NCBI GenBank assembly: GCA_025938935.1
Contig: JAPCWB010000001.1
Span: forward strand, 3,445,001 to 3,509,000
Direction of reading: 5' to 3'
DNA length: 64,000 bases
Source: Novosphingobium sp. MW5
GTDB taxonomy: Bacteria > Pseudomonadota > Alphaproteobacteria > Sphingomonadales > Sphingomonadaceae
The notes under the pieces are model-generated. The model was not told the origin of the DNA, ran no database searches, and saw only the letters and a program-made list of their open reading frames with translations. Shown piece after piece: positions 36,448 through 53,508 of the stretch (position 1 is its first letter; each line of letters starts with the position of its first letter). A program made the translations under genes and the position numbers.

Positions 36448-38746
36448 GCGGTATATCGCCCTCGATCTCGCCGAATGGCGTGGCATAGGCGGCTACAGGT
36501 ACGCCAAGGTCGCGTCCGATGTCGAGGTTCTCGCCGTTCCCCGACGCCAGTAGCATCTTGCCGTGCAGCGGTCCGCGGGCGACTTCGGTGCCATTGCTGG
36601 TAAGGATGGCTATCGCAGCGGTCGGCGTGGTTTCGAAACGCAAGGTCAGGTTGACCTTGCCCTGCGGCAAGGTTGCGACCGAACGCACCGTTGCCATTTC
36701 AGCGGGGTCGGTCGACCTGGCCCAGGCAAAAGCGGCATGGCCATGGTCGAGGTAAAGGCTGATTCCGCCGAACTTGCTGCCCCAGGCCAGCACGGCGCCT
36801 GATGCATCGGCCTTGTCGAGCACCAGCTCCGCCCGAATGGTAAAGCTGCGCCCGGCAAGATAGGGCGCGGCCCCGACTGCGGGCATCGAAACGTCCTTGC
36901 CCCAATAGTCGAACTGCTTGCGCGGTGATCCTGCGGATTGGCGGTCAACCCTGTCCATCGGCCGGCGGCTGTCGACCGGGTAGACATTGTTGCGGGTGGC
37001 TTCACTCTTCCACAGCGCGAGCATTTCCGAGAGCTTTGCCGGCTCCTTCGCGGCAACATCGGTGCCCTGCGAGAAGTCCTTGTCCAGATTGTAGAGCGAC
37101 CAAACAGGCGGCTTGGCGGCAGTCTCCGCCTCCCACGATGGCCGCCCGTCGTCTCCCGAAAGGAACCAGCCGTCGTGATAGAGGCCGACCTTGCCGCCGA
37201 TCTCGAAATACTGCGTGCGCGGCTTGGTACCATCGCAGGCAGCCAGTGAGGCAACCAGGCTCTGCCCGTCCATCGGCTTTTGCTTCACGCCGTAAACCAC
37301 CTCCGGCGCGGGAAGCTTGGCGGCTTCCAGCACGGTCGGGACGATGTCGACCAGGTGCGCGAATTGCGGGCAGATCGACCCGGGACGGGCAACGCGGTTC
37401 GGCCAGGCCAGCACCATGCCGTTACGCACGCCGCCCAGCATCGATGGCATCTGCTTCACCCAGCGCAGCGGCGTGTTCATCGCCCAGGCCCAGCCGACCG
37501 GATAATTCGCATAGGTATCCGGGCCGCCGAGCTTTTCAGTATTGGCGATCATCCACGCTTCGTTTTCGTCGTGGGTTTCGATTGAGCGCAATTCGTTGAT
37601 CGTTCCGGGAGGTCCCGCCTCGCCGCTGGCGCCGTTGTCCCCCTGAATGATCGAGACGAGGGTGTTGGACGCGAGGCCCATGCGGTCGAGTTCGGCGAGC
37701 ACGCGGCCGATCTGTTCATCCTGCATGACCAGTTGCGCGGCGGCGACTTCCATGGTGCGCGCGGCAAAGGCCTTTTGCGGCTGGCTGAGCGAAGCCCGGG
37801 CGGGAATCTCGGCCGGGCGTGCGGTCAATTTCGTCCCCTTGGGCACGATCCCGCCGGCCAGCTGGCGCTTGAAGCTCTCTTCGCGCAGCTTGTCCCAGCC
37901 CTGATTGAACTGCCCCTTGAAGCGCGCGATATATTCGGGCGGTGCCTGATGCGGGGCGTGGGTTGAGCCGGGCGCCCAGTACAGCAGGAACGGCTTGCCC
38001 GGAGACGCGGCGTTCTGGTTGTGGACATAGCGGATGATGTCGTCAGCCAGTCGCCGGTCGAGCATCCGGCCCTGGCCTTCGCGGGGATCGACAGGGTCCG
38101 TGCCGCGGAAGAGGATGGGTGAATACTGATCATTATCGCCGCTGTTGAAGCCGAAGAAATACTCGAAACCCAGTCCTGTCGGCCAGGCATCGAAGGGTCC
38201 TGTCGCGCTGCGATCGGTCGCCGGCATGTTGTGGTGCTTACCGAACATCGCGGTGTTGTAGCCATTGAGCCGCAGAACCTGCGCCATGGTCGCCGTTTCG
38301 GCAACAATCCGCCCGCCATAGCCGGGGAAGTTCACCGGCAGGTCAGAAAGATAGCCGACGCCCGCGTTGTGGTGGTTGCGTCCGGTGAGCAGCGCCGCGC
38401 GGCTGGGTGAGCAGACGCCGGTGGTGTGGAAGCGGTTGTAGCGCTGCCCCTGCGCCGCCACGCGGTCCATGTTCGGCGTCGGCACCGGGCCCCCGAAGGT
38501 GCTGGCCATGGCAAAGCCGACGTCATCGCTCATCAGTACGAGGATGTTGGGCGCCCCCTGCGGCGCACGGACAGGGGCTGGCGTTCCCGGGCGCGATTGC
38601 GGTATCGTCTCGCCAATCGTGCCGTTGAACGCAGGCGCCGGCAGCGGCAGAACCGTCCGCGCAGATTGCGCGAGCGCCGATGTCGTTCCCAGTAGCGCCA
38701 GCGTGAGCGCTCCGGCCTTGCCTAACTTCAGCATCCCGATCTCCAT
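36425..38746 (-). CDS. Arylsulfatase 1, Cys-type, periplasmic
   Basis: About 773 residues from ATG 38746 (MEIGMLKLG), with a signal peptide ending ALA|QSA. Sulfatase residues are NILVLMSDDVGFAM (metal-binding DD about 74-75) and the formylglycine site TGVCSPSRAALLTGRN (Cys about 112), with APGSTHAPHQAPPEYI downstream and MLGGVRNGMVLAWPNR in the central part. A C-terminal extension of about 180 residues has a lectin-like beta pattern (LYLDHGHAAFAWA...). It cleaves sulfate esters, probably outside the cytoplasm. It overlaps the FGE gene, so the enzyme and its activator are made together. Confidence 0.92.
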   Translation of the reverse strand: MEIGMLKLGKAGALTLALLGTTSALAQSARTVLPLPAPAFNGTIGETIPQSRPGTPAPVRAPQGAPNILVLMSDDVGFAMASTFGGPVPTPNMDRVAAQGQRYNRFHTTGVCSPSRAALLTGRNHHNAGVGYLSDLPVNFPGYGGRIVAETATMAQVLRLNGYNTAMFGKHHNMPATDRSATGPFDAWPTGLGFEYFFGFNSGDNDQYSPILFRGTDPVDPREGQGRMLDRRLADDIIRYVHNQNAASPGKPFLLYWAPGSTHAPHQAPPEYIARFKGQFNQGWDKLREESFKRQLAGGIVPKGTKLTARPAEIPARASLSQPQKAFAARTMEVAAAQLVMQDEQIGRVLAELDRMGLASNTLVSIIQGDNGASGEAGPPGTINELRSIETHDENEAWMIANTEKLGGPDTYANYPVGWAWAMNTPLRWVKQMPSMLGGVRNGMVLAWPNRVARPGSICPQFAHLVDIVPTVLEAAKLPAPEVVYGVKQKPMDGQSLVASLAACDGTKPRTQYFEIGGKVGLYHDGWFLSGDDGRPSWEAETAAKPPVWSLYNLDKDFSQGTDVAAKEPAKLSEMLALWKSEATRNNVYPVDSRRPMDRVDRQSAGSPRKQFDYWGKDVSMPAVGAAPYLAGRSFTIRAELVLDKADASGAVLAWGSKFGGISLYLDHGHAAFAWARSTDPAEMATVRSVATLPQGKVNLTLRFETTPTAAIAILTSNGTEVARGPLHGKMLLASGNGENLDIGRDLGVPVAAYATPFGEIEGDIPHVSITFD

Positions 38747-38822
38747 CCTGTTTGAGGTTGCCGTATCAGGCAGCGCCATAACGTCTAATGCAATGTGATG
38801 CCGATGCTGATACCTTGCAGTT
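38747..38822. promoter_or_regulatory. Divergent sulfatase / LysR control region
   Basis: An inverted repeat GTATCAG (38763-38769) and CTGATAC (38807-38813) lies between the sulfatase and LysR starts, spacing about 38 bases, a plausible LysR-type regulatory region. No other motif is clear. Confidence 0.4.
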
Positions 38823-39713
38823 ATGGAAATTGACCTCAATCGCCTGCGCCACATCGCGGCAATTGCGCGCACTGGCAGTTTTTCGCGCGCTGCCGACGAT
38901 CTGCACATTACACAGCCGGCGCTCAGCCGCTCTATCGCCACGTTCGAGAAGCGCTTCGGCCTGCGCATCTTCGACCGGGATCGCTCAGGCGTGGTGCCCA
39001 CCGCTATGGGGCGACTGGTTATCGAAGAGGCAGAGCGAGTGCTGCGCGCTGCCCGCGATCTAGACCACAACCTGCGCCTTTATGCGCGGGGCGAGGGCGG
39101 TGATCTGGCGATCGGCACTGGCCCGCTGCTCGCCATGTTGCTGCCCGACATTGGCCGGCGCTTGCTGGAAGAATGCCCGGCGATCCACTTGCGCGCGTCA
39201 GTGCGGACGCCGGAACATCTTGTGCAGGAATTGCTCGACGACAGGATTGAACTGATTTTCGGCAACAGCTGGGCCATTCGAGACATTCCCGATCTCGAGT
39301 TTTCTTCCGTTGGATCGGTCCGCCTTGCCTTCCTTGTTCGCGCCGGCCATCCACTGACGGCGCAGTCAGGGATAACTTTGGAGATGTTGGCCCAGTACCC
39401 GCTAGCGAGCGCGGCCAGTTCAAGCGTTGCTGGGCTCAGCAGCGCGACCGGGAGCTTCATCTGCGACAATTTCCACGTCCTGCGCGAACTTGTCATCCAG
39501 ACAGACTGCGTCTGGCTGTCGGCCCCGAGCGTACTGGCCGACGATATTGCGGCTGGCTGTCTGATCGCGCTCAAGGTCGAAGACTTTCATGACATCGATA
39601 GCGAGGTCGCGCTGATCACCCGCCGCAACCGCACGCTGTCCCCGTCTGCCCGTTCGCTTGTGGATCATCTACGCGGGCTCCTTTCAGCGCATGGCTCGCG
39701 CGCATTTGCATAA
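38823..39713 (+). CDS. LysR-family transcription regulator of the sulfatase locus
   Basis: A 296-residue LTTR. The N-terminal helix-turn-helix DLNRLRHIAAIARTGSFSRAADDLHITQPALSRSIATFEKRFGLRIFDRD is canonical. The effector domain (GDLAIGTGPLLAMLLPDIGRRLLEECP...) follows. It is transcribed divergently from the arylsulfatase and in the same direction as the second sulfatase, so it probably controls both in response to a sulfate-ester-derived ligand; inferred from position. Confidence 0.92.
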   Translation: MEIDLNRLRHIAAIARTGSFSRAADDLHITQPALSRSIATFEKRFGLRIFDRDRSGVVPTAMGRLVIEEAERVLRAARDLDHNLRLYARGEGGDLAIGTGPLLAMLLPDIGRRLLEECPAIHLRASVRTPEHLVQELLDDRIELIFGNSWAIRDIPDLEFSSVGSVRLAFLVRAGHPLTAQSGITLEMLAQYPLASAASSSVAGLSSATGSFICDNFHVLRELVIQTDCVWLSAPSVLADDIAAGCLIALKVEDFHDIDSEVALITRRNRTLSPSARSLVDHLRGLLSAHGSRAFA

Positions 39714-39795
39714 TCCCAAGGCATGCTTTGTTGCGCTTTTATGCATTGGACGTCTGGCTGGCGGGAGCATAGGGTTCCGTTCCTGAGGGAGACGG

Positions 39796-42123
39796 ATGAT
39801 GAGCAGGTTGGGCAGAGTTTCGCGGACAGCCTTGGTGGTTGCCGGAATGGCAATCGCTCCGTGCGGATCCGCCTTGGCCCAGCACGGCACTGCAGACCCG
39901 TTCCAACCGGGGGCATCCACGACCACCCATCAGCCCGCCGCCCCGGTCCGGCAGGAAACGCGGCCGAACGTGCTGATCTGGATGGTCGACGATGTCGGTT
40001 TCGGCCAGTTCTCCAGCTTTGGCGGTCTGGTCGATACGCCAAACATTGATCGCGTGGCGCGATCGGGGCTGCGCTACACCAATTACCATACCGCGCCGAT
40101 CTGCTCGGCAAGCCGGGCGGCCATGCTGACCGGTCGTAATCCGCACACGGTCCACATTGGCGGCCATGCCACCGCCGCGCGCGAGGGGTTTCTGGCCCAC
40201 GATGCCAGGATTCCGGCTGGGGCAGGCACCATTGCCGCCAACCTCAATGCCGCCGGATATGCCACCTTTGCGCTTGGCAAATGGGACCACTTGCCCAACG
40301 AGGAAGCGAGCCCCGCCGGTCCCTTCACCCGTTGGGCGCAAGGTCAGGGCTTTGAACAGTTCTATGGCTTCATGGCTGCCGATGCTGACCAGTGGAACCC
40401 GGTGCTGTATCGCGGCACCACGCCGGTGATGAAGCCCAAGGGCGCAGATTACCATGTCTCTGCCGACCTCGCTGATCAGGCGATTGCGATGATCGACCAG
40501 CGCAGCGCTCCGGGCGAGCAGGGCCGCACGCGGCCGTTTTTCATGTACTGGGCGACCGGTGCCGCCCACGCCCCACACCATGCGCCGAAGGAATGGATCG
40601 AGCGCTACAAGGGCAAGTTCGATCAAGGCTGGGATGCGGCGCGCGCGGCGGTGCTCAAATCGCAGATCGCCGCCGGTCTGGTTCCCAAGGGCACGAAGCT
40701 GGCACCCCGGCCCGAAGGCATGCCCGCTTGGGACAGCCTAGCCCCGGACGAAAGGAAGCTGTTCGCCCGCCAGATGGAAGCATTCGCCGCCTCGCTTGCT
40801 TATGCCGATGCGCAATTCGGGCGGATCCTTGATCGGCTGCAGGAGCGCGGTGAACTCGACAATACGATGGTCGTCATTACCAGCGACAACGGGGCCAGCG
40901 CCGAAGGCGCGCCCGGCGGCCTGTACAACGAGGCCGAGGTTACCAGCGCGAAACCGCCAAGCACTGCCGAAAACCTTGCCTTCTATGACGATTGGGGCGG
41001 CCCGCGCACCTATCCGCACTATGCGATGGGCTGGGCGGTGGCGGGCAATACGCCCTTTCGCTTTTTCAAGCAGACCACGCATGAAGGCGGAACGCGCGTG
41101 CCGCTCGTGGTGTCCTGGCCAAAGGGCATCGCGGCCCGCGGCGCGATCCGGCGGGACTTTGCCTATGTCACAGATGTCGCGCCGACCATCCTCGAGACGA
41201 CGGGGACCCCGCTGGCCAAGGTCGTCAACAACGTGCCCCAGACGCCGATGGAAGGGCAAAGCATCGCTGCGACTTTCAATGCCGCCGGTGATCCGCGCGG
41301 GGGCCGAGCGCAATATGTCGAACTCTACGGCAACAAGAAGCTGATGTGGCAGGGCTGGTCGCTGGTCACATCGCACCGGCTCAGGACCTGGGACTGGCAG
41401 ACCGCAAAGACCTTCAACGAACCCTGGGAGCTCTACGACGTCGTCAACGATCCCGGCGAAACCCGCGATCTTGCCTCAAGCGAGCCGGAACGCGTGGCGC
41501 GCATGGCGGCAGAATTCGATCGTCAGGTGCAGCCGCGCAACGTCTTTCCGCTGTTCAACCTTGCCGACACGGGCGCAGAATCGGTCATGCGAGGGCGCGC
41601 CGAATTCGCGCGGCGCGGCGGCCAATGGCGCTATGCCGGGCCGGTTGGCAGCATCAGTTCGGGTCTTGCCCCGCCCGTCATTGCCCGCAGCTTTAGCATG
41701 ACCGTCGCGATCGACAACCTCACACCCGGAGCTACCGGAGCGATCTTTGCCCAGGGCGGGCAGATGGGCGGGATCGGGTTCTACCTCAATCAGGGCCGTC
41801 CCCAGTTCATTCTCAACGACCTGCGAGGTAACAGCGTTTCGGTCACTGCCCCGGCACCTCTGGCGCAAGGGAAAGCGGACCTTCACCTCGAGGTCGCCCG
41901 CAGCACGCCGGGTGCGGACGGCAAGGCCGAATTCGACGTCACTATCCGCGATGGCGAGCGAATCCTCGCCCATCAGGCCGTGCGGTTCGCCTTGCCGCCC
42001 TATTTCGGCTTGTCCGAGGTGTTCGGTATTGGCGGCGATGCCGGCTCGCCGGTCCTGCGCGGTTATGAAGCGGGCGCACCCTTCCCGGGGCGGATCAGCG
42101 ACGTGCATTTCGATTTCAAATAA
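39796..42123 (+). CDS. Arylsulfatase 2, Cys-type, periplasmic
   Basis: A 775-residue protein with signal peptide (ALA|QHG). The sulfatase domain has RPNVLIWMVDDVGFG, the active-site motif TAPICSASRAAMLTGRNP (Cys about 103, C-x-A-x-R) and YWATGAAHAPHHAPKEWIERY. It is a paralogue of sulfatase 1 with the same two-domain layout and the same C-terminal beta module (GIGFYLNQGRPQFILND). The residues around the active site differ (CSASR against CSPSR), so the two probably handle different sulfate esters. There is no FGE of its own; the one upstream should serve both. Confidence 0.92.
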   Translation: MMSRLGRVSRTALVVAGMAIAPCGSALAQHGTADPFQPGASTTTHQPAAPVRQETRPNVLIWMVDDVGFGQFSSFGGLVDTPNIDRVARSGLRYTNYHTAPICSASRAAMLTGRNPHTVHIGGHATAAREGFLAHDARIPAGAGTIAANLNAAGYATFALGKWDHLPNEEASPAGPFTRWAQGQGFEQFYGFMAADADQWNPVLYRGTTPVMKPKGADYHVSADLADQAIAMIDQRSAPGEQGRTRPFFMYWATGAAHAPHHAPKEWIERYKGKFDQGWDAARAAVLKSQIAAGLVPKGTKLAPRPEGMPAWDSLAPDERKLFARQMEAFAASLAYADAQFGRILDRLQERGELDNTMVVITSDNGASAEGAPGGLYNEAEVTSAKPPSTAENLAFYDDWGGPRTYPHYAMGWAVAGNTPFRFFKQTTHEGGTRVPLVVSWPKGIAARGAIRRDFAYVTDVAPTILETTGTPLAKVVNNVPQTPMEGQSIAATFNAAGDPRGGRAQYVELYGNKKLMWQGWSLVTSHRLRTWDWQTAKTFNEPWELYDVVNDPGETRDLASSEPERVARMAAEFDRQVQPRNVFPLFNLADTGAESVMRGRAEFARRGGQWRYAGPVGSISSGLAPPVIARSFSMTVAIDNLTPGATGAIFAQGGQMGGIGFYLNQGRPQFILNDLRGNSVSVTAPAPLAQGKADLHLEVARSTPGADGKAEFDVTIRDGERILAHQAVRFALPPYFGLSEVFGIGGDAGSPVLRGYEAGAPFPGRISDVHFDFK

Positions 42124-42778: not shown

Positions 42779-43999
42779 TCAAGCTGGGTCAAATTCGATT
42801 GGCAGGCCCTTTAGCCCCCATGCCCCGGGGTAAGGACGCCAGCCGATCGGACCTGCCAGTCGCGGGTTCTTCAGCCGCTGCGCGCAGCGGTGTAATGCCT
42901 CTTGTAATTGCACTCGGGCTATATGCTGGCCCAAGCACACGTGCGTGCCCAGACTGAAGGCGATCTGCCGCTTCGCCGGTCCAACTTCACGGTCCGGGTC
43001 GAAGGTGTCGGCATCGTCGAACACGTGCTGGTCACGGCCTGAGACATTCAGCGTAAACCAGAGCATTGTATCCTTGGGCAAGAGAACGTCTCGGTAGACA
43101 ATATCTTCATTCGTGAAACGGGGGACTGATCCCGGGTTGAACACCCGAAGCCCCTCTTCGAGCACCTTGCGGCAGTATTCAGTGTCGACTGCGCAGCGCT
43201 CATAGATTTCCGGGCGCTCGAGCAGCTTCCACATCGTATGGGTCAGCACATTCTTGGAAGTGTCATAGCCGGCAATGAAGAAGAAGATGATCAGGTCTTC
43301 CAGTCTCCGCTCGGGCACACCGCCTTCGTCGCTGACGCTTATCAGCAGGTCGAGTAGGTCACCATAGGTCCCGGCTTTGGCGTCCGTTCGCCGTTCGGCG
43401 ATGACTCGTTGAACCAGCTTCTCAAGCCGATCAAACGAGGCATGTATTTCGGGCACGCGGTCCTTATCCATCGAAAATGCGAGACCGAGCGTTTCGAGAC
43501 TCGCGCGGATGCCGGGGATTTCCTCTAGGGGCGCGCCGACAAGGCGAAACATGACCGAGATCGGGTAATTGGCGGCGAACTCCTCGAAATCGAATGCTCC
43601 CTTAGGCGCCCACTCATCAAGCATGTGCGTGATTGTCTCGCTCATCATCGGGCGCAGCTGAGTGGCATATCGGGGAGTGAACTTGGCTGCGAAGGTTTCG
43701 CGCAAACTGCGATGCAGCTCCGTGGGCAGGGAAATCAGCTGCTCTTCGGTGAAGCGCCCCCACGATGTGCCGTGCGCGCCGAGCATATCGACAATGCCGT
43801 CATAGGCGGGACGCAAGTTATCATCATGCCCAAGCAAGTCGCGGATCGCCCGATAATCGTGAACCCAGTAGCCCATGTCGGATGCCGCAAGCCACGGATG
43901 CTGACGCTTCGCCTCGCGGAAATGGCTGACCGGATCGGCCGCGAACTCCGGCGTATCGACGGCGACAAAAGGAAGATTCAGCTCGGTGATCTTCTGCAC
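42779..43999 (-). CDS. Cytochrome P450 (first of two in the cluster)
   Basis: A 406-residue bacterial P450 from GTG 43999. The heme loop is FSLGTHVCLGQHIAR (Cys about 355), the ExxR motif is EEGLR, and the I-helix is IFFFIAGYDTSKN with the oxygen-activating DT (usual AGxDT). It uses electrons from a separate ferredoxin/reductase (not in the window) to oxidise a small molecule. It is the last gene of the leftward eight-gene unit. Substrate is unknown. Confidence 0.92.
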   Translation of the reverse strand: MQKITELNLPFVAVDTPEFAADPVSHFREAKRQHPWLAASDMGYWVHDYRAIRDLLGHDDNLRPAYDGIVDMLGAHGTSWGRFTEEQLISLPTELHRSLRETFAAKFTPRYATQLRPMMSETITHMLDEWAPKGAFDFEEFAANYPISVMFRLVGAPLEEIPGIRASLETLGLAFSMDKDRVPEIHASFDRLEKLVQRVIAERRTDAKAGTYGDLLDLLISVSDEGGVPERRLEDLIIFFFIAGYDTSKNVLTHTMWKLLERPEIYERCAVDTEYCRKVLEEGLRVFNPGSVPRFTNEDIVYRDVLLPKDTMLWFTLNVSGRDQHVFDDADTFDPDREVGPAKRQIAFSLGTHVCLGQHIARVQLQEALHRCAQRLKNPRLAGPIGWRPYPGAWGLKGLPIEFDPA

Positions 44000-44074: not shown

Positions 44075-44821
44075 CTACATATAAATGCCCCCGTTTACCG
44101 CCAGAACCTGGCCAGTGATGTAGGCGGCATCGTCAGACGCCAGGAATGCGCAAGCTCCGGCGATTTCGTCCGGGCGGCCGGCGCGCGGTATCGGAATCAA
44201 CGGTGTAACGTGGTCGAGTGAAAACTCGTTTGCCTCGATGGCCCGGAGCATTTGCGGAGTTTCACAAACCGAAGGCGCGATCGTGTTCACGGTGGTGCCC
44301 CCGCCGGCAAGCTCCCTGGCCAAAGCCTTGGTCAGGCTGATCACTCCGCCCTTGGCTGCCGAATAGTGCGCCATGCTCAATGCTCCGGACTGCCCGGCGT
44401 GGGAAGAAATCGAAATGACGCGTCCCCATCCGGCTTCGACTAAGTCCGGAAGAGCCGCCTGAATCGTGTGGAAGACGCCGGTCAGGTTAACGTCGATGAC
44501 CCGCTGCCAGTGCGCCGTCGTCATTTCTGCAAAAGATATGACAGGGGCTATTCCCGCATTCGGCACGACGATCGAAATGGGGCCGAATTGAGCCCGAACA
44601 ACCGCATAGACGGCATCGATGTCTGCACGCTGGGAGACATCCGCCCGGCAAGCGAGCACTGTGGCTCCCTCCTCAAGCAAGGCACCCGCTTCCTGTTCGA
44701 GAAGCTCCTCCTGAACGTCGAGCATCGCAGTAGGGTGGCCATCCTGAGCAAAGCGCTTTGCAATACCCAGTCCGATACCTCCGGCGGCGCCTGTGACGAC
44801 CACGACCCTTTTCCTGTTCAT
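44075..44821 (-). CDS. Short-chain dehydrogenase/reductase (SDR)
   Basis: A 248-residue classical SDR: TGAAGGIGLGIAKRFAQDGH (cofactor), NAGIAPVISF, active-site region SSHAGQSGALSMAHYSAAKGG (Ser-Tyr-Lys) and the C-terminal DDAAYITGQVLAVNGGIYM. It oxidises or reduces an alcohol/ketone with NAD(P). The cluster of two P450s suggests it oxidises a hydroxylated intermediate. It ends 75 bp before P450 1 and follows the next gene by 83 bp. Confidence 0.93.
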   Translation of the reverse strand: MNRKRVVVVTGAAGGIGLGIAKRFAQDGHPTAMLDVQEELLEQEAGALLEEGATVLACRADVSQRADIDAVYAVVRAQFGPISIVVPNAGIAPVISFAEMTTAHWQRVIDVNLTGVFHTIQAALPDLVEAGWGRVISISSHAGQSGALSMAHYSAAKGGVISLTKALARELAGGGTTVNTIAPSVCETPQMLRAIEANEFSLDHVTPLIPIPRAGRPDEIAGACAFLASDDAAYITGQVLAVNGGIYM

Positions 44822-44904: not shown

Positions 44905-45981
44905 TCACGGACGCTTATCGGTGCGGCTGAGGTCAGCGAAAATCTGAGGCAGGTCCACGGTGGTGACGATCCCTGGCGCGGCCGAGCAGACTGCCGGGAT
45001 TGCATTGATCGGCCTGTGGGCGGTCAGGTTCGGCATCACCTTTGCCCTTGTGTCAGGATCATTGGCGACCGGAAACTGGATCATGATGTCGAGTGGAGTG
45101 TCGCCCTCCACAATAACGCGCCAACCATCATCCCGTAGCTGCCAGGCTGGTTCGAGGTCCGTGGTGACAAACCAGTTTGAACGGAAGCGGAGCACCGGCT
45201 TGCCCTTGTGAAGCCCGGTGACAGTATGGCGTTGCCCGCCAACCGTTCCGCTGCCGATTGTCGTATCATGAAGTTTCACGGGCCCGCGGGTGACAGCGTG
45301 CTCGCTGGTGACTTCCACATCGTCGAAGGCAAGTCCGATAGCATCGGCTATCAGCCCGAGGGAGTTTGCGAAAACGGTATCGCGTTCCGTGAATTCTGTG
45401 GCTCCGAAGATTTCCGGGGCCTCGCCGAACCGCATGATGTTGATCAGCATGTCTTCCGAACAGGTGTCTACGCAATGGGCGAACTCGTCGATGGTCAGAA
45501 GGTCCAGGCGTCGTTGCAGCGACAAGAGCGGTGGCAGAAGCGCCTCGGTGATAAAGCCCGGGCTGCTGCCGCTGGCATGAATGGAACTGTTCCCCGTTTG
45601 ACACGCCTTCTCGACCCGTTGGCGAAGAGCCGCGTTCATTCGCTCTGGATTGAAGAATTCGGCACGTGTGGTGACGATGTTTGCCCCGCTTTCCAGAATG
45701 CGGCAGATTTCGTCTGCATCGGTTCGGTCTGCCATGTAGACTACGCAGTCGGGCAAAGTTGCAAGTAGCGCCTCGACGTTGCGCGTGGCCAATACACCGG
45801 TGGCAGCCAGGCCGCACAGATCTCCTGCGTCCTTGCCTTCCTTGTTCTCGGAGTAGACCCGAACGCCGACGAGTTCGAGTTGAGGATGTCCAATCACAGC
45901 CCGCAGCGCGCTGGTGCCGACGGTACCCGTTGCCCACTGCACCACACGTAGAACGGCACCGCTCCTTTTATCAGCTTTCAT
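44905..45981 (-). CDS. NAD(P)-binding dehydrogenase of the dihydrodipicolinate-reductase-like family
   Basis: About 358 residues from ATG 45981, just after a strong ribosome site (GAGGAGTGGGAA). An N-terminal Rossmann fold, RVVQWATGTVGTSALRAVIGHPQLELVGVRVY, and the pattern CVVYMADRTDADEICRIL...GANIVTTRAEFF match the family that includes 2,4-diaminopentanoate dehydrogenase and other NAD(P)H-dependent amine dehydrogenase-like proteins. Exact reaction is unknown. The start overlaps the VOC gene's end by 11 bp. Confidence 0.85.
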   Translation of the reverse strand: MKADKRSGAVLRVVQWATGTVGTSALRAVIGHPQLELVGVRVYSENKEGKDAGDLCGLAATGVLATRNVEALLATLPDCVVYMADRTDADEICRILESGANIVTTRAEFFNPERMNAALRQRVEKACQTGNSSIHASGSSPGFITEALLPPLLSLQRRLDLLTIDEFAHCVDTCSEDMLINIMRFGEAPEIFGATEFTERDTVFANSLGLIADAIGLAFDDVEVTSEHAVTRGPVKLHDTTIGSGTVGGQRHTVTGLHKGKPVLRFRSNWFVTTDLEPAWQLRDDGWRVIVEGDTPLDIMIQFPVANDPDTRAKVMPNLTAHRPINAIPAVCSAAPGIVTTVDLPQIFADLSRTDKRP

Positions 45982-46618
45982 TTCCCACTCCTCTATCTCG
46001 TTCAGGCATTGGCGGACACGGTGTGACGTTTGCTGTGTGGTGAATGGGCGAGAATAAAGCGCGGCGATTGCCCGCAATTACGGTTCCGTTCCAGTGCGGC
46101 AGGCCTTCACGGATAGGGTCGCTTCCGTCCCACTCTGCCGCGTGACTCCTGACTGACTCCCGAACACCATCCTTGAACGGATCACAATCGCTCAGTTCGA
46201 TGCAGACTGCCGGGTCGCCGGGATGTATCAAGAAGATCGATTTTCCAGGCCCCGACTTCGTCTCGAACACAGTCTCCCAGCCCCTGATGTGGGCAGCCGC
46301 CTGCAATCGGACAACATCGCGCGACCACACGCCCATGTGCTGAATATGCAGGCCCGGGATACCCACAAGAGCATCGGTATAAAGCGAAGGCGTATCATTG
46401 TGTTGCATGACAATTTCGAATTGCAGGTCACCGCAATTCGCCATTGCAATTGATACGTCGAGTTGGATCGCGTTACCCTTGTAGAGCATTGCCGCATCGA
46501 GATGCCGGAGTACGAACCACGGCCCCACGCCACAGCTCTCGGCGAAGAATCTCATGCTGCTGTCGATGTCGCGCGACATGAAACCGATCTGGCGGACCTC
46601 TCCAAAGATGGATTGCAT
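45971..46618 (-). CDS. VOC-superfamily (glyoxalase-like) protein
   Basis: A 215-residue protein with a VOC fold: IFGEVRQIGFMSRDIDSSMRFFAESCGVGPWFVL...LHIQHMGVWSRDVVRLQAAAHIRG...SIFLIHPGDPAVCIELSD. His and Glu residues in HIQHMG and CIELSD are candidate metal ligands. The family includes dioxygenases, epimerases and isomerases, and the substrate is not clear. The tail past about residue 160 is unconserved. Confidence 0.82.
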   Translation of the reverse strand: MQSIFGEVRQIGFMSRDIDSSMRFFAESCGVGPWFVLRHLDAAMLYKGNAIQLDVSIAMANCGDLQFEIVMQHNDTPSLYTDALVGIPGLHIQHMGVWSRDVVRLQAAAHIRGWETVFETKSGPGKSIFLIHPGDPAVCIELSDCDPFKDGVRESVRSHAAEWDGSDPIREGLPHWNGTVIAGNRRALFSPIHHTANVTPCPPMPERDRGVGNES

Positions 46619-46660: not shown

Positions 46661-47941
46661 TCAGCTCGCCGAGGCTGGCTCCAGAACCAGCTGCAATTCC
46701 GCAAGGCCGCGCACAATGAAGCTGGGCTCGAACGTTAGCCTTCGCGCTGCGGGCTCTCCGTGTCGCAGGGGATCGAGATCTATCTTTGAAGTGTACTCAA
46801 AAAATTTCTCCAGCAGGACCCGAACTTCTACGCGGGCCAGCGGCGCTCCAGCGCAGGTATGCGCGCCTCGTCCGAAGGAGAGATGCTCCTTGATACGGGG
46901 GCGACCGAGTGTGAACTTGTTGGGCTCATCCCAGCGGGCCGGATCACGGCTGATTACTGCAAGCGCAATGGCTACCTTGGTTCCGGCCGCTATGGAAACG
47001 CCCCCGATGGTCGTATCGCGAACCGCAAGGCGCGCAGTAATCTTGGAAGAGCCTTCGAGCCGCAGCACCTCCTCCAGCATTGGCGCTATCAGGCTGGGGT
47101 CCTGCCTCAGCCTGTCCTGAAGCCCGGGCTCATCGACGATGAACCGCATCGCATTGCCGATAAGCTTCGCGCTGGTGTCCTGACCGGCACCGAACATGAA
47201 GGTTGAAAGGTTCACGAGGTCTTCGAGATTTGGCGTAGTTCCGTCGGGGTAACTAGCGTGGGCCAGTTCACTCAGGATGTCGTTACGTGGGTTCAGTTGA
47301 CGTTCGCGAATGTATTTCGCGAAATAGTTGCCCATTACGACCATCGGGTGGTTCTCCCCGGAATAGTCGTTCTCATCGGCGTCGAGACTTCCCGGAACCG
47401 GAGCCGCTGCGATGACATCCATGAAGAATTGACGATCTTCGACCGGCACGCCGAGTAAGTCCGCGATCACCACCGTTACGAACGGGGTAGCGATGTCGCC
47501 GATAAGCTCACACTTACCCTTCGCGGCCGCCGCCCTTACCAATTCGTCCGAATAGCTCTCGATGAACTTCTCGTTGGCCTTGAGCCGCGATGGTGTGAAC
47601 AAGCGGTTGACCAGGGAACGCAAGTTGACATGCGCCTTGTCGTCGAGGTTCACCAGCAGGTCGTGGCCAAGGATTCCGGTGCGGTTCCTCTCAAGTTGCT
47701 CGGAAATGTCGGACCCTTCTGGCTCGAAAGGCAGCGGAGCCGCCGCACCCTGCAAAGCGATCGAGGACGAAAAATCCTTGGCATTGAGAAAAACGTCGAG
47801 TGCCTCGTTGAACCCGGTTACGATGACATAGTCCTTGCCTGGAGGCTGAAAGACCGGGCCGTGGCGGCGCACTTCCTCGAAGTATGCATAAGGGTCCACC
47901 AGGATCTCGGGATCAGTGAAAAAGTCTTTCTCAATCAGCAT
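46661..47941 (-). CDS. Cytochrome P450 (second of two in the cluster)
   Basis: A 426-residue P450: heme loop LSFGRGAHTCAGAPLAR (Cys about 363), ExxR in LEEVLRLEG, and I-helix STFMFGAGQDTSAKLIGN (AGxDT). It is divergent from the first P450, so the two probably act at different positions or steps. It starts 10 bp after the alpha/beta hydrolase stop, in the same operon. Confidence 0.93.
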   Translation of the reverse strand: MLIEKDFFTDPEILVDPYAYFEEVRRHGPVFQPPGKDYVIVTGFNEALDVFLNAKDFSSSIALQGAAAPLPFEPEGSDISEQLERNRTGILGHDLLVNLDDKAHVNLRSLVNRLFTPSRLKANEKFIESYSDELVRAAAAKGKCELIGDIATPFVTVVIADLLGVPVEDRQFFMDVIAAAPVPGSLDADENDYSGENHPMVVMGNYFAKYIRERQLNPRNDILSELAHASYPDGTTPNLEDLVNLSTFMFGAGQDTSAKLIGNAMRFIVDEPGLQDRLRQDPSLIAPMLEEVLRLEGSSKITARLAVRDTTIGGVSIAAGTKVAIALAVISRDPARWDEPNKFTLGRPRIKEHLSFGRGAHTCAGAPLARVEVRVLLEKFFEYTSKIDLDPLRHGEPAARRLTFEPSFIVRGLAELQLVLEPASAS

Positions 47942-47951
47942 ATCAAATCTC

Positions 47952-48782
47952 TCAGTAGATTATGGGTTCTGACACCGGCGCGCCGCGCTGGTCGGCGAGC
48001 CAATTTGCCATCACGCGGGTGAACGCGACGGCCTGTTCGACCATGGGAATATGCCGCGCTCCTTCGAACACGCTTCGTTTCGAACCGGGAATTGCGTCGG
48101 CGATAAGGGCGTTACCTGCGGGCGGCGTTCCTGTGTCATTGCTACCCCAGACAATCATTGTGGGAACCTTGATTGAAGCCAGCTGCGACCGGCTGTCAAA
48201 AGTCAGGATCGCCATGCCGCCCCCAAAGTATCCCGCTAGCGTGGTGGCCGCGACAGTGGCCCTGATCACGTTCCATCGTTCGGGGTTTGCGGTCTTGAAT
48301 TCTTCAGTAACCCAGCGATCCATAGTGGCGTCCGCCAGGGGCTCCAGTGAACCCGCGTTATGCATGGCGGCGAATCTATCGATCCAGACGGTTTCGCCGC
48401 CGGGGATGTTCGTCGCGGCAGTATCGCAAAGCATCAAGGAAATCAGCCGGTGCGGGTGATCAATACCAAGCTGCTGGCCAATCATTCCGCCAATCGAGAC
48501 ACCGGCGAAATGCACCTTATCAAGGCCGAGAAGGTTCAACACTGCCACCACATCCTGCGCAAGCCCCGGCATTGTGTAGGCTTCCTCGCACCCGGGAGAA
48601 CTGCCGCCGTGGCCGCGCATGTCGATACGCAGGACGCGCCAGCCTCGTGCCAGCAATGGCGAAACCTGTTCGGCCCAGATGCCCATATCGGCGGACAGTG
48701 AGTGCGCCAGGCAGACAACTGGCGCACCTTCGTCTCCGAGCAGGTCGAAGCAAATATGGCGTCCGCCAAGTTGCAATAACAT
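47952..48782 (-). CDS. Alpha/beta hydrolase
   Basis: About 276 residues from ATG 48782 (MLLQLGGRHICF); the long frame upstream is out of frame with the previous gene and unsupported. The nucleophile elbow is FAGVSIGGMIGQ, an Asp in VWGSNDTGTP and the catalytic His in EGARHIPMVEQ complete the triad. HSLSADMGIWAEQVSPLL resembles enol-lactone hydrolases such as 3-oxoadipate enol-lactonase. Substrate here is unknown. It lies 8 bp after the UGSC-partner stop. Confidence 0.9.
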   Translation of the reverse strand: MLLQLGGRHICFDLLGDEGAPVVCLAHSLSADMGIWAEQVSPLLARGWRVLRIDMRGHGGSSPGCEEAYTMPGLAQDVVAVLNLLGLDKVHFAGVSIGGMIGQQLGIDHPHRLISLMLCDTAATNIPGGETVWIDRFAAMHNAGSLEPLADATMDRWVTEEFKTANPERWNVIRATVAATTLAGYFGGGMAILTFDSRSQLASIKVPTMIVWGSNDTGTPPAGNALIADAIPGSKRSVFEGARHIPMVEQAVAFTRVMANWLADQRGAPVSEPIIY

Positions 48783-48790
48783 GGCCGGAG

Positions 48791-49903
48791 TCAGGCGACG
48801 TTTGAGTGCACGGCCGGCGCTGTAGCAGCGATCGGCTTGGTCTGCGCCAAGGAGCTGCCAAAGCTGTGCAACCCGAGCGCGTGGAGTCCTCCAAGGCCAC
48901 CACAGACGAAGAGGATCATGTCTTTCGGCTCGGGTGTCGCATAAATGCGACCGTCGCCGCGGATACGTCCCTGTGCCTCGATCTGCGCGCGGTGCTGTTC
49001 CTGCAACCAGTCTCCGGGCAGACTTGCGAACCGCCACAGGATTTCCTGCACGTCTCCTATGTTTGGGATCTCCTTGGCTATTATCTCCGCGCAGATTGGA
49101 TTGATCCCGATCGCCATCTCCGAAAACTCCATAGACGGCGAAAAGCAATTGGCTCCCGGGTAAGCGACCGACTTGCCGATCATCTCCAGGAAGGCGCGGG
49201 CGCCGGTCGATGTCGTATCAAGGACATTCATCGTGCCCATGGTGTTGAGCGCGGTCACGGCGTTCCCGGCAACAGCCGCACGCCGCTCGGCCAGCGGAGC
49301 CCACGGCGAGCGCTCTTCCCATTCCCCCATCAGTATACTGGCAAGCCTGCCAGGAGAGCCGAAGGTGGTCTGGGAGGTCACTCCGGCAACCTGACCGGCA
49401 ACATTGCGCATGATGAGGCGGATGGCGCGGCCGATGGCGTTGGCCTTCGTGGCTACACCGCCCGCGCAGCCGTAGCTGAAAGGAATGTCCAAGGCTTGCC
49501 GCACAGGTCCATTGACGACGAAGGCGGGGAAAACCGGAGCGGTTGTAGCGTTGACGCCATAAAGTTCGAAATCGGGTTCGCTAACAGCCTCGATAGCAGC
49601 CACGATCAGCTCAAGTGAAGCCGGTGGAGCTCCTGCCATGACTGCATTGATAACGATCTTCTCGATAGTGCAGTCGGATCCGTCCGGCATTCTGGCGATG
49701 AGTTCGTCCGGGTAGCGATCGTTTTCCGCAAGAAACGAACGCACCCGGCTTTCTGTTGGCGGTACAAGCGGAAGACCGTCCCCCCAGCCTTGCGCGAGCG
49801 AGAAATCAGTGAAAGCACAAATATCGTCTTCAACTTCGATACGATCGCTGGTGAGCCAGTCTACGGAGCACCCTGCGGGACCACAATCGCGGCTGACAAG
49901 CAT
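48791..49903 (-). CDS. UGSC-associated partner protein, function unknown
   Basis: About 370 residues from ATG 49903; a TTG at 49954 overlapping the preceding stop is an alternative. No named domain is recognised. Conserved-looking features are AQGWGDGLPLVPPTESRV near the start, the glycine-rich PFSYGCAGGVATKANAIGRAIRLIMRNVAG, and ANCFSPSMEFSEMAIGINPICAEIIAKEI. It is coupled to the UGSC gene upstream and is followed by the hydrolase. A two-component UGSC enzyme is suggested by the pairing only. Confidence 0.75.
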   Translation of the reverse strand: MLVSRDCGPAGCSVDWLTSDRIEVEDDICAFTDFSLAQGWGDGLPLVPPTESRVRSFLAENDRYPDELIARMPDGSDCTIEKIVINAVMAGAPPASLELIVAAIEAVSEPDFELYGVNATTAPVFPAFVVNGPVRQALDIPFSYGCAGGVATKANAIGRAIRLIMRNVAGQVAGVTSQTTFGSPGRLASILMGEWEERSPWAPLAERRAAVAGNAVTALNTMGTMNVLDTTSTGARAFLEMIGKSVAYPGANCFSPSMEFSEMAIGINPICAEIIAKEIPNIGDVQEILWRFASLPGDWLQEQHRAQIEAQGRIRGDGRIYATPEPKDMILFVCGGLGGLHALGLHSFGSSLAQTKPIAATAPAVHSNVA

Positions 49904-49950
49904 CGTGCGAGCTTGCTTGCTTCGATTGGAAGGCCGGACGAGGTGAATGC

Positions 49951-50523
49951 TCAAGCGACCATCTCCTCTGCGTCGGACGTAACGCCCATGCAGGAAAGCA
50001 AGCCTGCGTAGTATTCATTGGCGACCTGTTCCACGTCCTCACGAGACAACTCGTTCAACGGATAGGGGAGCGTGTGGACACGCAACCCTGACCGCCCACC
50101 GCGCCGTGCCATCTCGTGCGCAAAAGCTTCGAAGTTGCGAGTTGCGACAGCGACGGTTGGGAGGCCGGCATTAGCAGCGGCAATCGCATCGCGAATGGTC
50201 CAGCCGGTGCACGATCCGCAGTTTGCGAGCCCTAGGACCACAACGTCAACAGTCTTTAGCCACGCGAGCAGAGATCGTTCCTGCTCCTCGCCTTCTTCAC
50301 CCGAGCGATTGGTCGAGCGCCAATACGTAACCTGAGCCCCCGCCTGGCGAAAATTTGCCTCCCAGATTTCGCTGATCCAATCCCAGGATCGCCATATCTG
50401 ATCGACTCGAATGCCGACCGTTTTGCCGTGCAAACTGTCAGCAGGCGGCCCGGCACTAGCGTTGTCAGCCGCTCTTTGCGCAGTCGGATTCAAGATCCTG
50501 ATACGCGATCCCTCCGTTTCCAT
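49951..50523 (-). CDS. UGSC-family protein (Cys variant)
   Basis: About 190 residues from ATG 50523, which follows a strong ribosome site (GGGAGAAGGAAACC). The signature is LGLANCGSCTGWTIRDAIA: the UGSC motif in which the first residue (selenocysteine in the named members, coded here by TGC) is Cys. KTVGIRVDQIWRSWDWISEIWE and LPTVAVATRNFEAFAHEMARR are conserved blocks. The CxxC-like thiol pair suggests redox or nucleophilic chemistry. It is the first gene of the leftward operon. Function of the family is not established. Confidence 0.8.
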   Translation of the reverse strand: METEGSRIRILNPTAQRAADNASAGPPADSLHGKTVGIRVDQIWRSWDWISEIWEANFRQAGAQVTYWRSTNRSGEEGEEQERSLLAWLKTVDVVVLGLANCGSCTGWTIRDAIAAANAGLPTVAVATRNFEAFAHEMARRGGRSGLRVHTLPYPLNELSREDVEQVANEYYAGLLSCMGVTSDAEEMVA

Positions 50524-50641: not shown

Positions 50642-51534
50642 ATGTATATGCTCAATCTGCGCTCCCTTCATCATTTCGTCATACTGGCTGAGCGTCTCAA
50701 TTACACGCGGGCTGCCGACGAACTTGGTATCACCCAGCCCACTCTCACCCGGTCCATCCAGGCTCTTGAACGACGATTGGGCCTGAGACTGTTTGATCGG
50801 GATCAGGGGGTGTCCATCTGACCCGAGACGGGGAGCGTACCGCTGAACGTGCTCGGCACATCCTGATCGACGCGAGTGATCTCGAGCGACAGTCCCGCGA
50901 AAGCGGAGTGGGTCTGACGGGGCGAGTGCGGTTCGGCATGACGCCGATGCTGGCTCATGCTCTCCTCCACAATATCCTGTCTGAGCGACTGAGTTCATTT
51001 CCGGCGGTTACAAATGAGGTGGTTGTGCGCGACGGCGAGGCGTTATGGGGGATGCTCATGGCGGGCGAGATCGAGTTTTTCGCTAGCGCTGATCCCCCGC
51101 TACATGACCTGTCTCGCGTCAGCGTCGAAGTCCTTGGTAACTCACCTCTTTGTTTGCTGGTACGCCGGGATCATCCGTTAGTGACCGGATCAAACATTAC
51201 GAGTCAGTTCCCACTCGTAAGAGCCAGTTGGGCCGGCCTGAAGGTGCCTGACGAGGTTAGGCACTGGGTGCTCAACGAAGCCAACATTATCGAGGACTTC
51301 GCGGTCCTGGAGAAGCTCACTACTACGACTGACTGCATGTGGCTTGCTTCGGCCCACGCCGTTCCGCAAATGCTGCAACGTGGAGATTTGGTCGAACTCT
51401 TCAGGTCCGAACGGACGGTCGAGTTGGTAGTCTGCTCGCTCAAGAGGCGAAGCCTGTCGCTGCTGGCAAGAGCGATCATTCAGCACCTTCGCTCTCAAGT
51501 CCTGCTGATGACAGGTGCGACTCACACGCTTTGA
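50642..51534 (+). pseudogene. LysR-family regulator with frameshift in a G5 tract
   Basis: The start may be ATG 50642 (GTG 50630 is in frame). The HTH reads LRSLHHFVILAERLNYTRAADELGITQPTLTRSIQALERRLGLRLFDRDQG and then breaks at five G (50806-50810). With six G it continues GVHLTRDGERTAERARHILIDASDLERQSRESGVGLTGRVRFG and reaches the effector-binding domain to 51534, about 297 residues, a normal LTTR. It is divergent from the UGSC operon and probably its regulator. Because the change is in a homopolymer, it could be an error or a reversible phase-variable site. Confidence 0.8.
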
Positions 51535-51680: not shown

Positions 51681-52523
51681 GGCATTGTCAGAGCAAATGC
51701 ACCGACTGGTGACGACGGAGACTGAACGCTAAGGGCACCACCATGCCGCGCCCTAGAAAACCTACCAGCCCGTTCCGCTATTTCAACTCATCGCCTGAGG
51801 TGATCTGCCTCGTGGTGATGATGTACGTACGGTTTCCGCTGTCGCTGAGGAACGTTGAGGACCTGCTGTTCGAACGCGGGATCGACCTGTGCCACGAGAC
51901 GGTGCGAATGTGGTGGAACCGGTTCGGGCCGATGTTCGCTGGCGACATCCGTCGGCAGCGGGTTAGCCGGATGCGGGGCTTCAGGCAATGGCGCTGGCAT
52001 CTTGATGAGATGTACGTGAAGCTGAACGGTGAGATGGTCTACCTCTGGCGCGCGGTCGACCAGGAAGGCGAGATCCTCGAGAGTTTCATCACGAAGACGC
52101 GCGACAAGGCCGCAGCCCTCACGTTCATGAAGAAGGCACTCAAGCGCCACGGATCACCGGAGAACATCACCACCGACGGGCTGCGCTTCTACGGTGCAGC
52201 GATCAACGAGCTTGGCAATGGCGAGAAGCAGGAGATCGGCCGCTGGGCCAACAACCGGGTTGAGAACTCGCACCTGTCTTTCCGGCGACGAGAGCGAGCG
52301 ATGCTCAGGATTCGGCGAATCAAGACCCTCCAGAAATTCGCCTCGGTATATGCCAACGTCCACAACCACTTTAATCAGGAACGCCACCTCATCGACCGCC
52401 AGACTTACAGGCTCCGCCGCTCGGCCGCACTGGCCGAGTGGCAGTCTCTCATGGCCTAAACGCTTCCGCTCAAAGCCATAGTTCCGCCAATTGGAGGCGA
52501 GTTGCGAATAGACTGACAGCACC
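51681..52523 (+). mobile_element. IS6-family insertion sequence, copy 1
   Basis: Left end GGCATTGTCAGAGC (51681) and right end CTGACAGCACC (52513-52523) are imperfect inverted repeats resembling the ends of copy 2. The element is about 843 bp and encodes one transposase. The flanking 8-bp sequences differ, so no target duplication is visible. Confidence 0.8.
51743..52459 (+). CDS. IS6-family DDE transposase, copy 1
   Basis: A 238-residue transposase of the IS6 family: an N-terminal zinc/HTH region FRYFNSSPEVICLVVMMYVRFPLSLRNVEDLLFERGIDLCHETVRMWWNRFG and the catalytic residues in RWHLDEMYVKLNG (D), ITTDGLRFYG (D) and WANNRVENSHLSFRRRERAM (E). It promotes replicative transposition with cointegrate formation. 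It is roughly 80 to 85% identical by eye to copy 2, so the two are not a recent duplication. Confidence 0.95.
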   Translation: MPRPRKPTSPFRYFNSSPEVICLVVMMYVRFPLSLRNVEDLLFERGIDLCHETVRMWWNRFGPMFAGDIRRQRVSRMRGFRQWRWHLDEMYVKLNGEMVYLWRAVDQEGEILESFITKTRDKAAALTFMKKALKRHGSPENITTDGLRFYGAAINELGNGEKQEIGRWANNRVENSHLSFRRRERAMLRIRRIKTLQKFASVYANVHNHFNQERHLIDRQTYRLRRSAALAEWQSLMA

Positions 52524-52668
52524 GATTGTGCAGTCTAACTTCACATTGCTCGTCCGGCCCAGTTTCCGGTTTGCACCCTGCAGAAATGCAGACCCGAAAA
52601 CTGGCGGTCCTGGGGCGCGTTAATAAACTAATCAACACAGTAGCGTCACTTGACCGGAATAACGGCGT

Positions 52669-53508
52669 GGCTCTGTCAGGGCAATGTGGCACGCGGCGCA
52701 TTGCGCTGATAGCCAGCGCACATGAGCCGCAAATCCAAGGCCAAGCCGCCTAGCCCATTCCGGTGTTTCAACTCGTCGCCTGAGGTGATCCGCCTCGTGG
52801 TCATGATGTATGTTCGCTTTCCGCTGTCGCTGCGGAACGTCGATGACCTGCTGTTCGAGCGCGGGATTGACCTGTGCCATGAGACGGTGCGGAGGTGGTG
52901 GAACCGGTTCGGGCCGCTATTCGCGGCCGACATCCGCCGGCAACGGGTGAGCCGAATGAAGGGCTTTCGCCAGTGGCGCTGGCACCTTGACGAGGTCTAC
53001 GTCAAGATCAACGGCGAGATGCACTACCTCTGGCGCGCGGTCGACCAGGAAGGCGAAATCCTCGAGAGTTTCGTGACCAAAAGGCGGGACAAGGAAGCGG
53101 CCCTGTCGTTCATGAGGAAGGCACTGAAGCGCCATGGTTCACCCGAGGCGATCACCACCGATGGGCTGGCTTCCTACAAGGCTGCGATGAAGGTGTTGGG
53201 CAACACCGACAAGCAGGAAATCGGCCGTTGGGCCAACAATCGGGTCGAGAACAGTCACTTGCCGTTCCGACGACGAGAGCGGGCAATGCTCCGGTTTCGA
53301 CAGATGAAGTCGTTACAGAAGTTCGCCTCGGTCCACGCCGGTCTCCACAACCACTTCAACCAGGAACGCCACCTCATCGATCGCCAGACTTACAAGCTTC
53401 GCCGCTCGGCCGCATTGGTCGAGTGGCAGTCGCTTATGGGCTGAGGTCTCGCACCAAAAGCCAAAGTTGCGCGAAACGTAGACGAGTTGCGATTAGACTG
53501 ACAGCACC
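52669..53508 (+). mobile_element. IS6-family insertion sequence, copy 2
   Basis: Left end GGCTCTGTCAGG (52669) and right end CTGACAGCACC (53498-53508) form imperfect inverted repeats. It is about 840 bp in the same orientation as copy 1, with 145 bases between them. No 8-bp target duplication is seen. Confidence 0.8.
52722..53444 (+). CDS. IS6-family DDE transposase, copy 2
   Basis: A 240-residue IS6 transposase: PFRCFNSSPEVIRLVVMMYVRFPLSLRNVDDLLFERGIDLCHETVRRWWNRFG, catalytic D in HLDEVYVKING, D in ITTDGLASYK and E in NRVENSHLPFRRRERAM. Full length, apparently intact. IS6 pairs in direct orientation can carry the DNA between them as a unit, but here the intervening 145 bases hold no gene. 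Confidence 0.95.
   Translation: MSRKSKAKPPSPFRCFNSSPEVIRLVVMMYVRFPLSLRNVDDLLFERGIDLCHETVRRWWNRFGPLFAADIRRQRVSRMKGFRQWRWHLDEVYVKINGEMHYLWRAVDQEGEILESFVTKRRDKEAALSFMRKALKRHGSPEAITTDGLASYKAAMKVLGNTDKQEIGRWANNRVENSHLPFRRRERAMLRFRQMKSLQKFASVHAGLHNHFNQERHLIDRQTYKLRRSAALVEWQSLMG

Follow-up and report, generated by a model that had tools for sequence, protein, structure and literature searches.

A Cys-form UGSC protein at the head of a P450 operon and its conserved partner, a candidate two-subunit thiol reductase

The UGSC gene, its partner and the host operon

The window analysed here, a stretch of 64,000 nucleotides from Novosphingobium sp. MW5, carries on its minus strand (49951..50523) a gene for a UGSC-family protein in the Cys form (C102-G-S-C105). 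The open frame encodes 190 amino acids with the motif ANCGSCTGW, and its product matches PF24696 (E = 2e-34) at 119.6 bits, above the Pfam gathering cut-off of 25. The U/C-G-S-C motif is common to this protein and the known UGSC family (GOS 2008; PF24696; NF041046), but the window protein differs from the NCBI equivalog NF041046 in having Cys in place of Sec and in its score, 76.8 bits, which is under the cut-off of 125. The 2008 selenoprotein survey, in the part consulted, counted 21 Cys homologues in the UGSC family (PMC2398784).

The next gene on the same strand (48791..49954) starts with TTG and overlaps the UGSC stop by 4 nt. It encodes a protein of 387 amino acids, hereafter the partner, with an N-terminal W-x-DGLPxxPPT motif (alignments A2/A6) and an AlphaFold model of pLDDT 91.9. 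Rows whose translation failed, including L052, L053 and L055-L057, are not part of alignment A6. Six more genes complete a run of eight in one direction on the minus strand. After 11 nt comes an alpha/beta hydrolase resembling 3-oxoadipate enol-lactonase (47952..48779; PF00561; TIGR02427 at 218.6 bits, below the cut-off of 255.85), after 10 nt a first cytochrome P450, P450a (46661..47941; PF00067), and after 42 nt a VOC-superfamily protein (45971..46618; PF13669). Further down are an oxidoreductase like 2,4-diaminopentanoate dehydrogenase (DAPDH-like; 44905..46077; PF19328), a short-chain dehydrogenase (SDR) 83 nt away (44075..44821; PF13561) and, after 75 nt, a second P450, P450b (42779..43999; PF00067). 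The listed start of the DAPDH-like gene overlaps the VOC gene by 107 nt, which is probably a start-codon artefact, the true start lying inside the listed frame.

The preliminary description had reported a Cys-form UGSC motif beside an unrecognised protein of roughly 370 residues, followed by co-directional hydrolase, P450, VOC, oxidoreductase, SDR and P450 genes. Both frames were confirmed, and so were, by Pfam, all the genes that follow; for the partner there was no Pfam match, no NCBIfam match above cut-off (one sub-threshold row, E = 0.045) and no sequence match in the PDB, where all sequence searches yielded nothing usable.

Two tandem IS240-type (DDE_Tnp_IS240) transposase genes lie near the operon head at 51743-53444, and beside it is a LysR gene (50908-51534) whose frame contains the substrate-binding domain alone, as if cut. 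Past the P450 end of the operon, at 35503-42123, are two large sulfatases, a formylglycine-generating-enzyme-like gene and a LysR regulator.

Pairing and fusion across genomes

The preliminary description had suggested a search for co-occurrence of the two genes, and its reading relied on UGSC homologues having a conserved partner. Such a partner was found at 101 of 105 distinct UGSC loci above cut-off (40 of 41 fetched first, 47 of 50 further loci and all 14 additional fusion loci, the last being 17 fetched with 3 repeats removed). This set leaves aside L010-L012 and L047, which are below the Pfam cut-off, and G478:C154, and the 101 include two weak cases, L228, where the partner match is a fragment of 31 bits at the edge of a contig, and L030, where the partner is about 0.9 kb off. 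The four loci without partner are L029, L215, L221 and L253, the last two of which end near contig ends.

In the reverse direction, a scan with a partner profile, one genome per species, gave at least 583 relatives. UGSC was present at 73 of the best 80 of these, which are the loci closest to the window partner and not a random draw; at L077 and L113 the distance is 1.0 and 3.9 kb. The close pairs within the best 80 (n = 81) had UGSC first in 66 cases and the partner first in 15, with a median gap of 42 nt, and 71 of the 81 were of the Sec form according to an automatic U/C reading that misread L016 (really Sec) and left a few cases unresolved. Judged by record titles, these best 80 of at least 583 loci span Proteobacteria, Actinobacteria, Chloroflexi, Myxococcota, Acidobacteriota, Rokubacteria, Methylomirabilota, Poribacteria, a Bacillus and a haloarchaeon. 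These results indicate that coupling of UGSC and partner is a general rule and not a local oddity, far beyond chance.

UGSC was found in 9 of 296 genomes of the host's order (6 above cut-off), 38 of 385 of its class and 5 of 398 drawn from its phylum, with up to 8 copies per genome. Viral contigs searched with a UGSC query gave no match. Plasmid records with partner relatives numbered 24, every one below 60% identity, and the operon DNA had no near match among plasmids. Of seven annotated plasmid regions, chosen by hand from the 24 records, six label the partner "hypothetical protein" and one lists no gene for it; UGSC is named in three.

The host genome itself has a second UGSC, of the Sec form, fused in one frame to a partner domain that shares 28% identity with that of the window (E = 1e-25). 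The sole interruption of this frame is a TGA, precisely where the U of UGSC is expected. About 3 kb separate the tRNA-Sec of the host (73.2 bits; ARAGORN anticodon tca) from its SelA (E = 7e-159), and therefore translation of the TGA as Sec is very probable. Among the fusion loci as a whole, UGSC and partner were in one frame in 17 of 17, with TGA at the U position in 16 and Cys in one. When SECIS elements were sought, hairpins after the TGA were seen in L002 and L127, with a loop sequence that recurs in L150; shuffling gave z-scores of -1.3, -0.5 and +1.2, and the putative signal is weak.

Fusion as such is not new, because a fusion of UGSC to an unnamed domain, "Unknown_1", was already in print in the consulted part of the 2008 survey (PMC2398784). 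Unknown_1 is likely the same domain as the window partner. At L127:1280-5508 a stand-alone partner and a Sec-form UGSC directly precede a fusion of Sec-form UGSC and partner and a gene like thioredoxin reductase (TrxR). Tandem pairs of different partner copies follow UGSC or the fusion at L230, L232, L235, L238, L240, L242, L244, L246-L249, L150, L152, L154, L157 and L159, an arrangement that suggests a heteromeric partner.

Sequence and predicted structure of the two proteins

U/C102, G103 and C105 were invariant across 66 UGSC sequences. In the AlphaFold model of the window protein (pLDDT 94.4), strand and helix alternate five times, and C102 sits between strand 94-100 and helix 103-118. The predicted fold is a parallel-type alpha/beta sandwich; the likely fold given in 2008 was thioredoxin-like (PMC2398784, in the part consulted), which may still hold. 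The structural neighbours listed are varied three-layer alpha/beta proteins, namely DNPH1/MilB, flavodoxin-type quinone reductases, flavo-diiron proteins, TIR, LacI-type and receiver domains, and thioredoxin was absent among the 50 rows listed in each of two structure searches. In the profile comparison, UGSC against a thioredoxin-like domain scored 0.7%.

When the UGSC profile was compared by hhalign with that of PrdB/GrdB, the probabilities in the two directions were 95.7% and 95.9% (P = 1.1e-8 and 5.1e-9), with the Sec columns aligned; the PrdB/GrdB sequences were drawn from genomes that carry UGSC. Ten control families reached at most 4.2% against UGSC, and the positive control, PrdB against GrdB, gave 99.5%. 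UGSC scored 89.7% against PrdB-like sequences alone and 56.0% against GrdB alone (two sequences). Shared features are the UxxC Sec motif at the same profile position and, after it, a strand with -G-(I/L)-P-T-V- and then an HP-like motif. At the level of Pfam, no match to GRDB (PF07355) was present among the matches listed for UGSC sequences (25 of 36 families), and the window protein hit, at E <= 1, UGSC and one unrelated sub-threshold family. From these profiles we read UGSC and the Sec module of PrdB/GrdB as probable remote homologues, short of membership at the Pfam level. The match seems to be new; the portions of the UGSC literature that were consulted contain no statement of a general UGSC partner or of a link to PrdB/GrdB. 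Some genomes with UGSC also encode, at L131-L139, short PrdB-like selenoproteins (U-P-x-C), and the four neighbours of these that were scanned (methyltransferase, luciferase-like, MocA-type, enoyl-CoA hydratase) include no PrdA-like gene.

The likeness to PrdB/GrdB extends to organisation, as UGSC too has a larger second subunit and, in some operons, a thioredoxin system. It differs in that the second subunit is unrelated to the pyruvoyl-type GrdE and in that UGSC occurs in many other lineages, sometimes in the Cys form. A partner homologous to GrdE was considered and dropped, the partner profile showing no similarity to GrdE (PF09338; 2 sequences) at 0.2%.

The top Foldseek rows for the partner were class I fumarases (best E = 1.4e-4, TM about 0.2), and with VIA-align its model scored Z = 4.6 against a two-subunit fumarase (187 residues), the maximum for a fumarase, and at most 5.3 against anything. 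This is a weak overall resemblance to the class I fumarase alpha domain, with scores too low for kinship. It is nevertheless the starting point of a reading in which the pair is a non-redox enzyme: the thiol or selenol of UGxC would serve as nucleophile for isomerisation, hydrolysis or a lyase reaction, thioredoxin genes would only keep it reduced, and the partner would be distantly related to the fumarase alpha domain. The rank of class I fumarases in Foldseek and the VIA-align Z agree with it, as do genes for aconitase X, adenylosuccinate-lyase-like and MmgE/PrpD proteins near some loci. However, the structural scores are in the range that the tool calls "common arrangement", and the conserved cluster cysteines of class I fumarase, which has three such ligands, were not seen in the partner, which has one nearly invariant Cys that the window copy lacks. 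A fused CxxC domain, described below, suggests electron delivery. We consider the non-redox reading rather improbable.

This nearly invariant partner Cys lies in a NAVMAGC motif, where the window has Ala109. In the ten closest relatives of the window partner (L048-L057) it is Ala in nine and Thr in one, and it is kept in L058, the outermost row of the window clade; its loss in the window and these relatives shows that the partner Cys is not essential for all members. A tree of the partner made by a quick method placed the window in a clade of 12 rows with 100% support, containing 7 Cys and 5 Sec forms, and required at least four Cys/Sec switches overall. The window copy belongs to a subclade in which Cys and Sec forms are mixed and the partner Cys is lost.

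Such a copy might be specialised or degenerate, riding in a P450 cluster near IS elements and having left the ancestral role. The Ala or Thr at the partner Cys, the mixture of Cys and Sec forms in this group, and the IS240-type transposases and LysR fragment that flank the operon head fit this idea; yet proximity to IS elements alone shows little, and the gene is under constraint, since it retains U/C-G-x-C and several lineages have relatives of 62-67% identity. We regard this reading as quite unlikely.

Thioredoxin links, candidate reaction and gene neighbourhood

One branch of the partner has an extra N-terminal domain, which contained CxxC in 12 of 12 members examined and had thioredoxin-superfamily matches in five of eight scanned, two of them above the Pfam cut-off. 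A TrxR-like gene with CxxC was found at 10 of 17 fusion loci, at 4 of the best 80 of at least 583 partner loci and at 2 of 43 short first-set loci, and at none of 16 control regions, which were placed by hand in 12 genomes, mostly on contigs from another search, with two of them short and one (L167) holding a UGSC/partner copy. In the host genome, the fusion overlaps a TrxR-like gene (Pyr_redox_2, CATC motif) by 4 nt when counted from the first possible start codon, the overlap depending on the start chosen, as a later one is possible. The order of fusion, second partner copy and TrxR recurs in six loci (L150, L151, L152, L154, L157 and L159); in L155 the TrxR gene is in the opposite direction, and in L156 it is about 4 kb away. 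Annotated gene rows include trxB-trxA-partner-UGSC in Arthrobacter and partner-UGSC-trxB in Roseovarius, and in Variovorax trxB is three genes upstream and the partner is followed by a hypothetical protein that its score identifies as UGSC. Among the listed window genes around the pair there is neither thioredoxin nor TrxR. This repeated tie of the partner to thioredoxin seems to be new.

The conserved pairing in either gene order and the natural fusions support the view that UGSC and partner form one unit. The preliminary description had proposed a "two-component thiol enzyme", and since gene arrangements also tie the pair to thioredoxin and TrxR, this is a good reading. More specifically, we hold with moderate confidence that the two are subunits of one selenol/thiol reductase driven by a thioredoxin-type system. 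The basis for this is the pairing, the fusion, the invariant U/C-G-x-C at a predicted strand end, the PrdB/GrdB profile match and the links to thioredoxin and TrxR genes and domains; the best reading is that the pair works like PrdB/GrdB with an unrelated second subunit. The partner would bind the substrate, the selenolate, or in the window the thiolate of C102, would attack it, and the second Cys (C105) would resolve the intermediate, leaving a Se-S or S-S bond. This bond could then be reduced again by thioredoxin or a thioredoxin-like domain that receives electrons from the TrxR-like flavoprotein, and by analogy with glycine and D-proline reductases the net reaction may be one that reductively cleaves a C-X bond adjacent to a carboxylate. 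We infer this mechanism from remote homology and from the links between genes and between domains.

Precedents were found in the consulted parts of the literature. In glycine reduction the chain runs from NADPH through thioredoxin reductase and thioredoxin to GrdA and GrdB (PMC3091704), feeding by NADPH-TrxR-Trx is also described elsewhere (PMC10298544), and a figure legend places trxA among the glycine-reduction genes (PMC10838667). Cleavage of the C-F bond of fluoroacetate is assigned to GrdB/GrdE relatives, a precedent for C-X bonds beyond C-N (PMC10838667). Against the analogy, D-proline reductase reportedly works without thioredoxin (PMC10298544).

A related alternative is thioredoxin-linked detoxification or repair, in which UGSC reduces peroxides, disulfides or a metal or organometal adduct while the toxic or damaged substrate is brought in by the partner. 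The same thioredoxin and TrxR links are compatible with it, and most selenoprotein families of the 2008 survey are, in the part consulted, thiol-oxidoreductase homologues or have a thioredoxin-like fold (PMC2398784). By contrast, the profile likeness is to PrdB/GrdB rather than to a thioredoxin-like domain, and the presence of up to 8 UGSC copies in one genome and neighbours that look catabolic (CoA transferases, enoyl-CoA hydratases, acyl-CoA dehydrogenases, amidohydrolase and transporters) may also speak against a detoxifying role, which we judge unlikely.

Returning to the reductase, we tentatively consider a wider picture, possible though less secure than the two-subunit reading itself, of a widespread and so far undescribed class of two-subunit selenoenzymes analogous to glycine and proline reductases. 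Its members would combine a PrdB-like Sec module with a new substrate subunit and a dedicated thioredoxin or TrxR, many copies would cleave C-X bonds of different small organic acids in bacteria and haloarchaea, and the window pair would be a Cys version grafted on a P450 catabolic operon. Glycine and proline reductases belong to anaerobes, and many UGSC carriers are probably aerobic, which counts against the analogy. With a near-obligate partner, a predicted fold and a candidate mechanism and electron donor, the orphan UGSC becomes a pair that can be expressed and assayed, and if the link to PrdB/GrdB holds, the reductive selenol chemistry of Stickland fermenters would reach far beyond them, into many further lineages.

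The preliminary description had also suggested that the pair may start or end an oxidative catabolic pathway, and had regarded the genomic context as a rare clue to the role of UGSC. The latter view was not borne out: relatives of the window P450s, VOC and DAPDH-like proteins occurred at 0 of the best 80 of at least 583 partner loci, with flanks of up to 8 kb on each side, many shorter and some contigs of only 4 kb, and we set the P450 operon aside as a clue to function. SDRs were present at many of these 80 loci and hydrolases at 6, both being very common superfamilies. Six regions with P450a relatives, one of them a paralogue in the host genome, had the SDR in three and UGSC and partner in none. 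As the window-type neighbours are missing elsewhere and the P450a-SDR combination recurs without UGSC, the pair joins varied contexts.

Across loci, with gene calls that are crude choices of open frames, the neighbours included CoA transferases, enoyl-CoA hydratases, acyl-CoA dehydrogenases, MmgE/PrpD, amidohydrolase and transporters, families that may loosely fit organic-acid catabolism. The commonest were TctC receptors, with 20 of 115 co-directional neighbours scanned (of 135 chosen) and 62 genes in 22 of the best 80 of at least 583 partner loci. TctC was rejected as a clue to the substrate, because all 12 carrier genomes tested had at least 97 TctC genes and its proximity to the pair is therefore background. 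Sulfatases like those of the window were within 8 kb of the pair in L056 and L057, closely related Acidimicrobiia among the best 80 of at least 583 loci, and sulfated substrates may be part of the same catabolic islands. At L197 and L194, in an Arthrobacter and on a haloarchaeon plasmid, the UGSC pair has a gene with the annotation phosphosulfolactate synthase less than 3 kb away.
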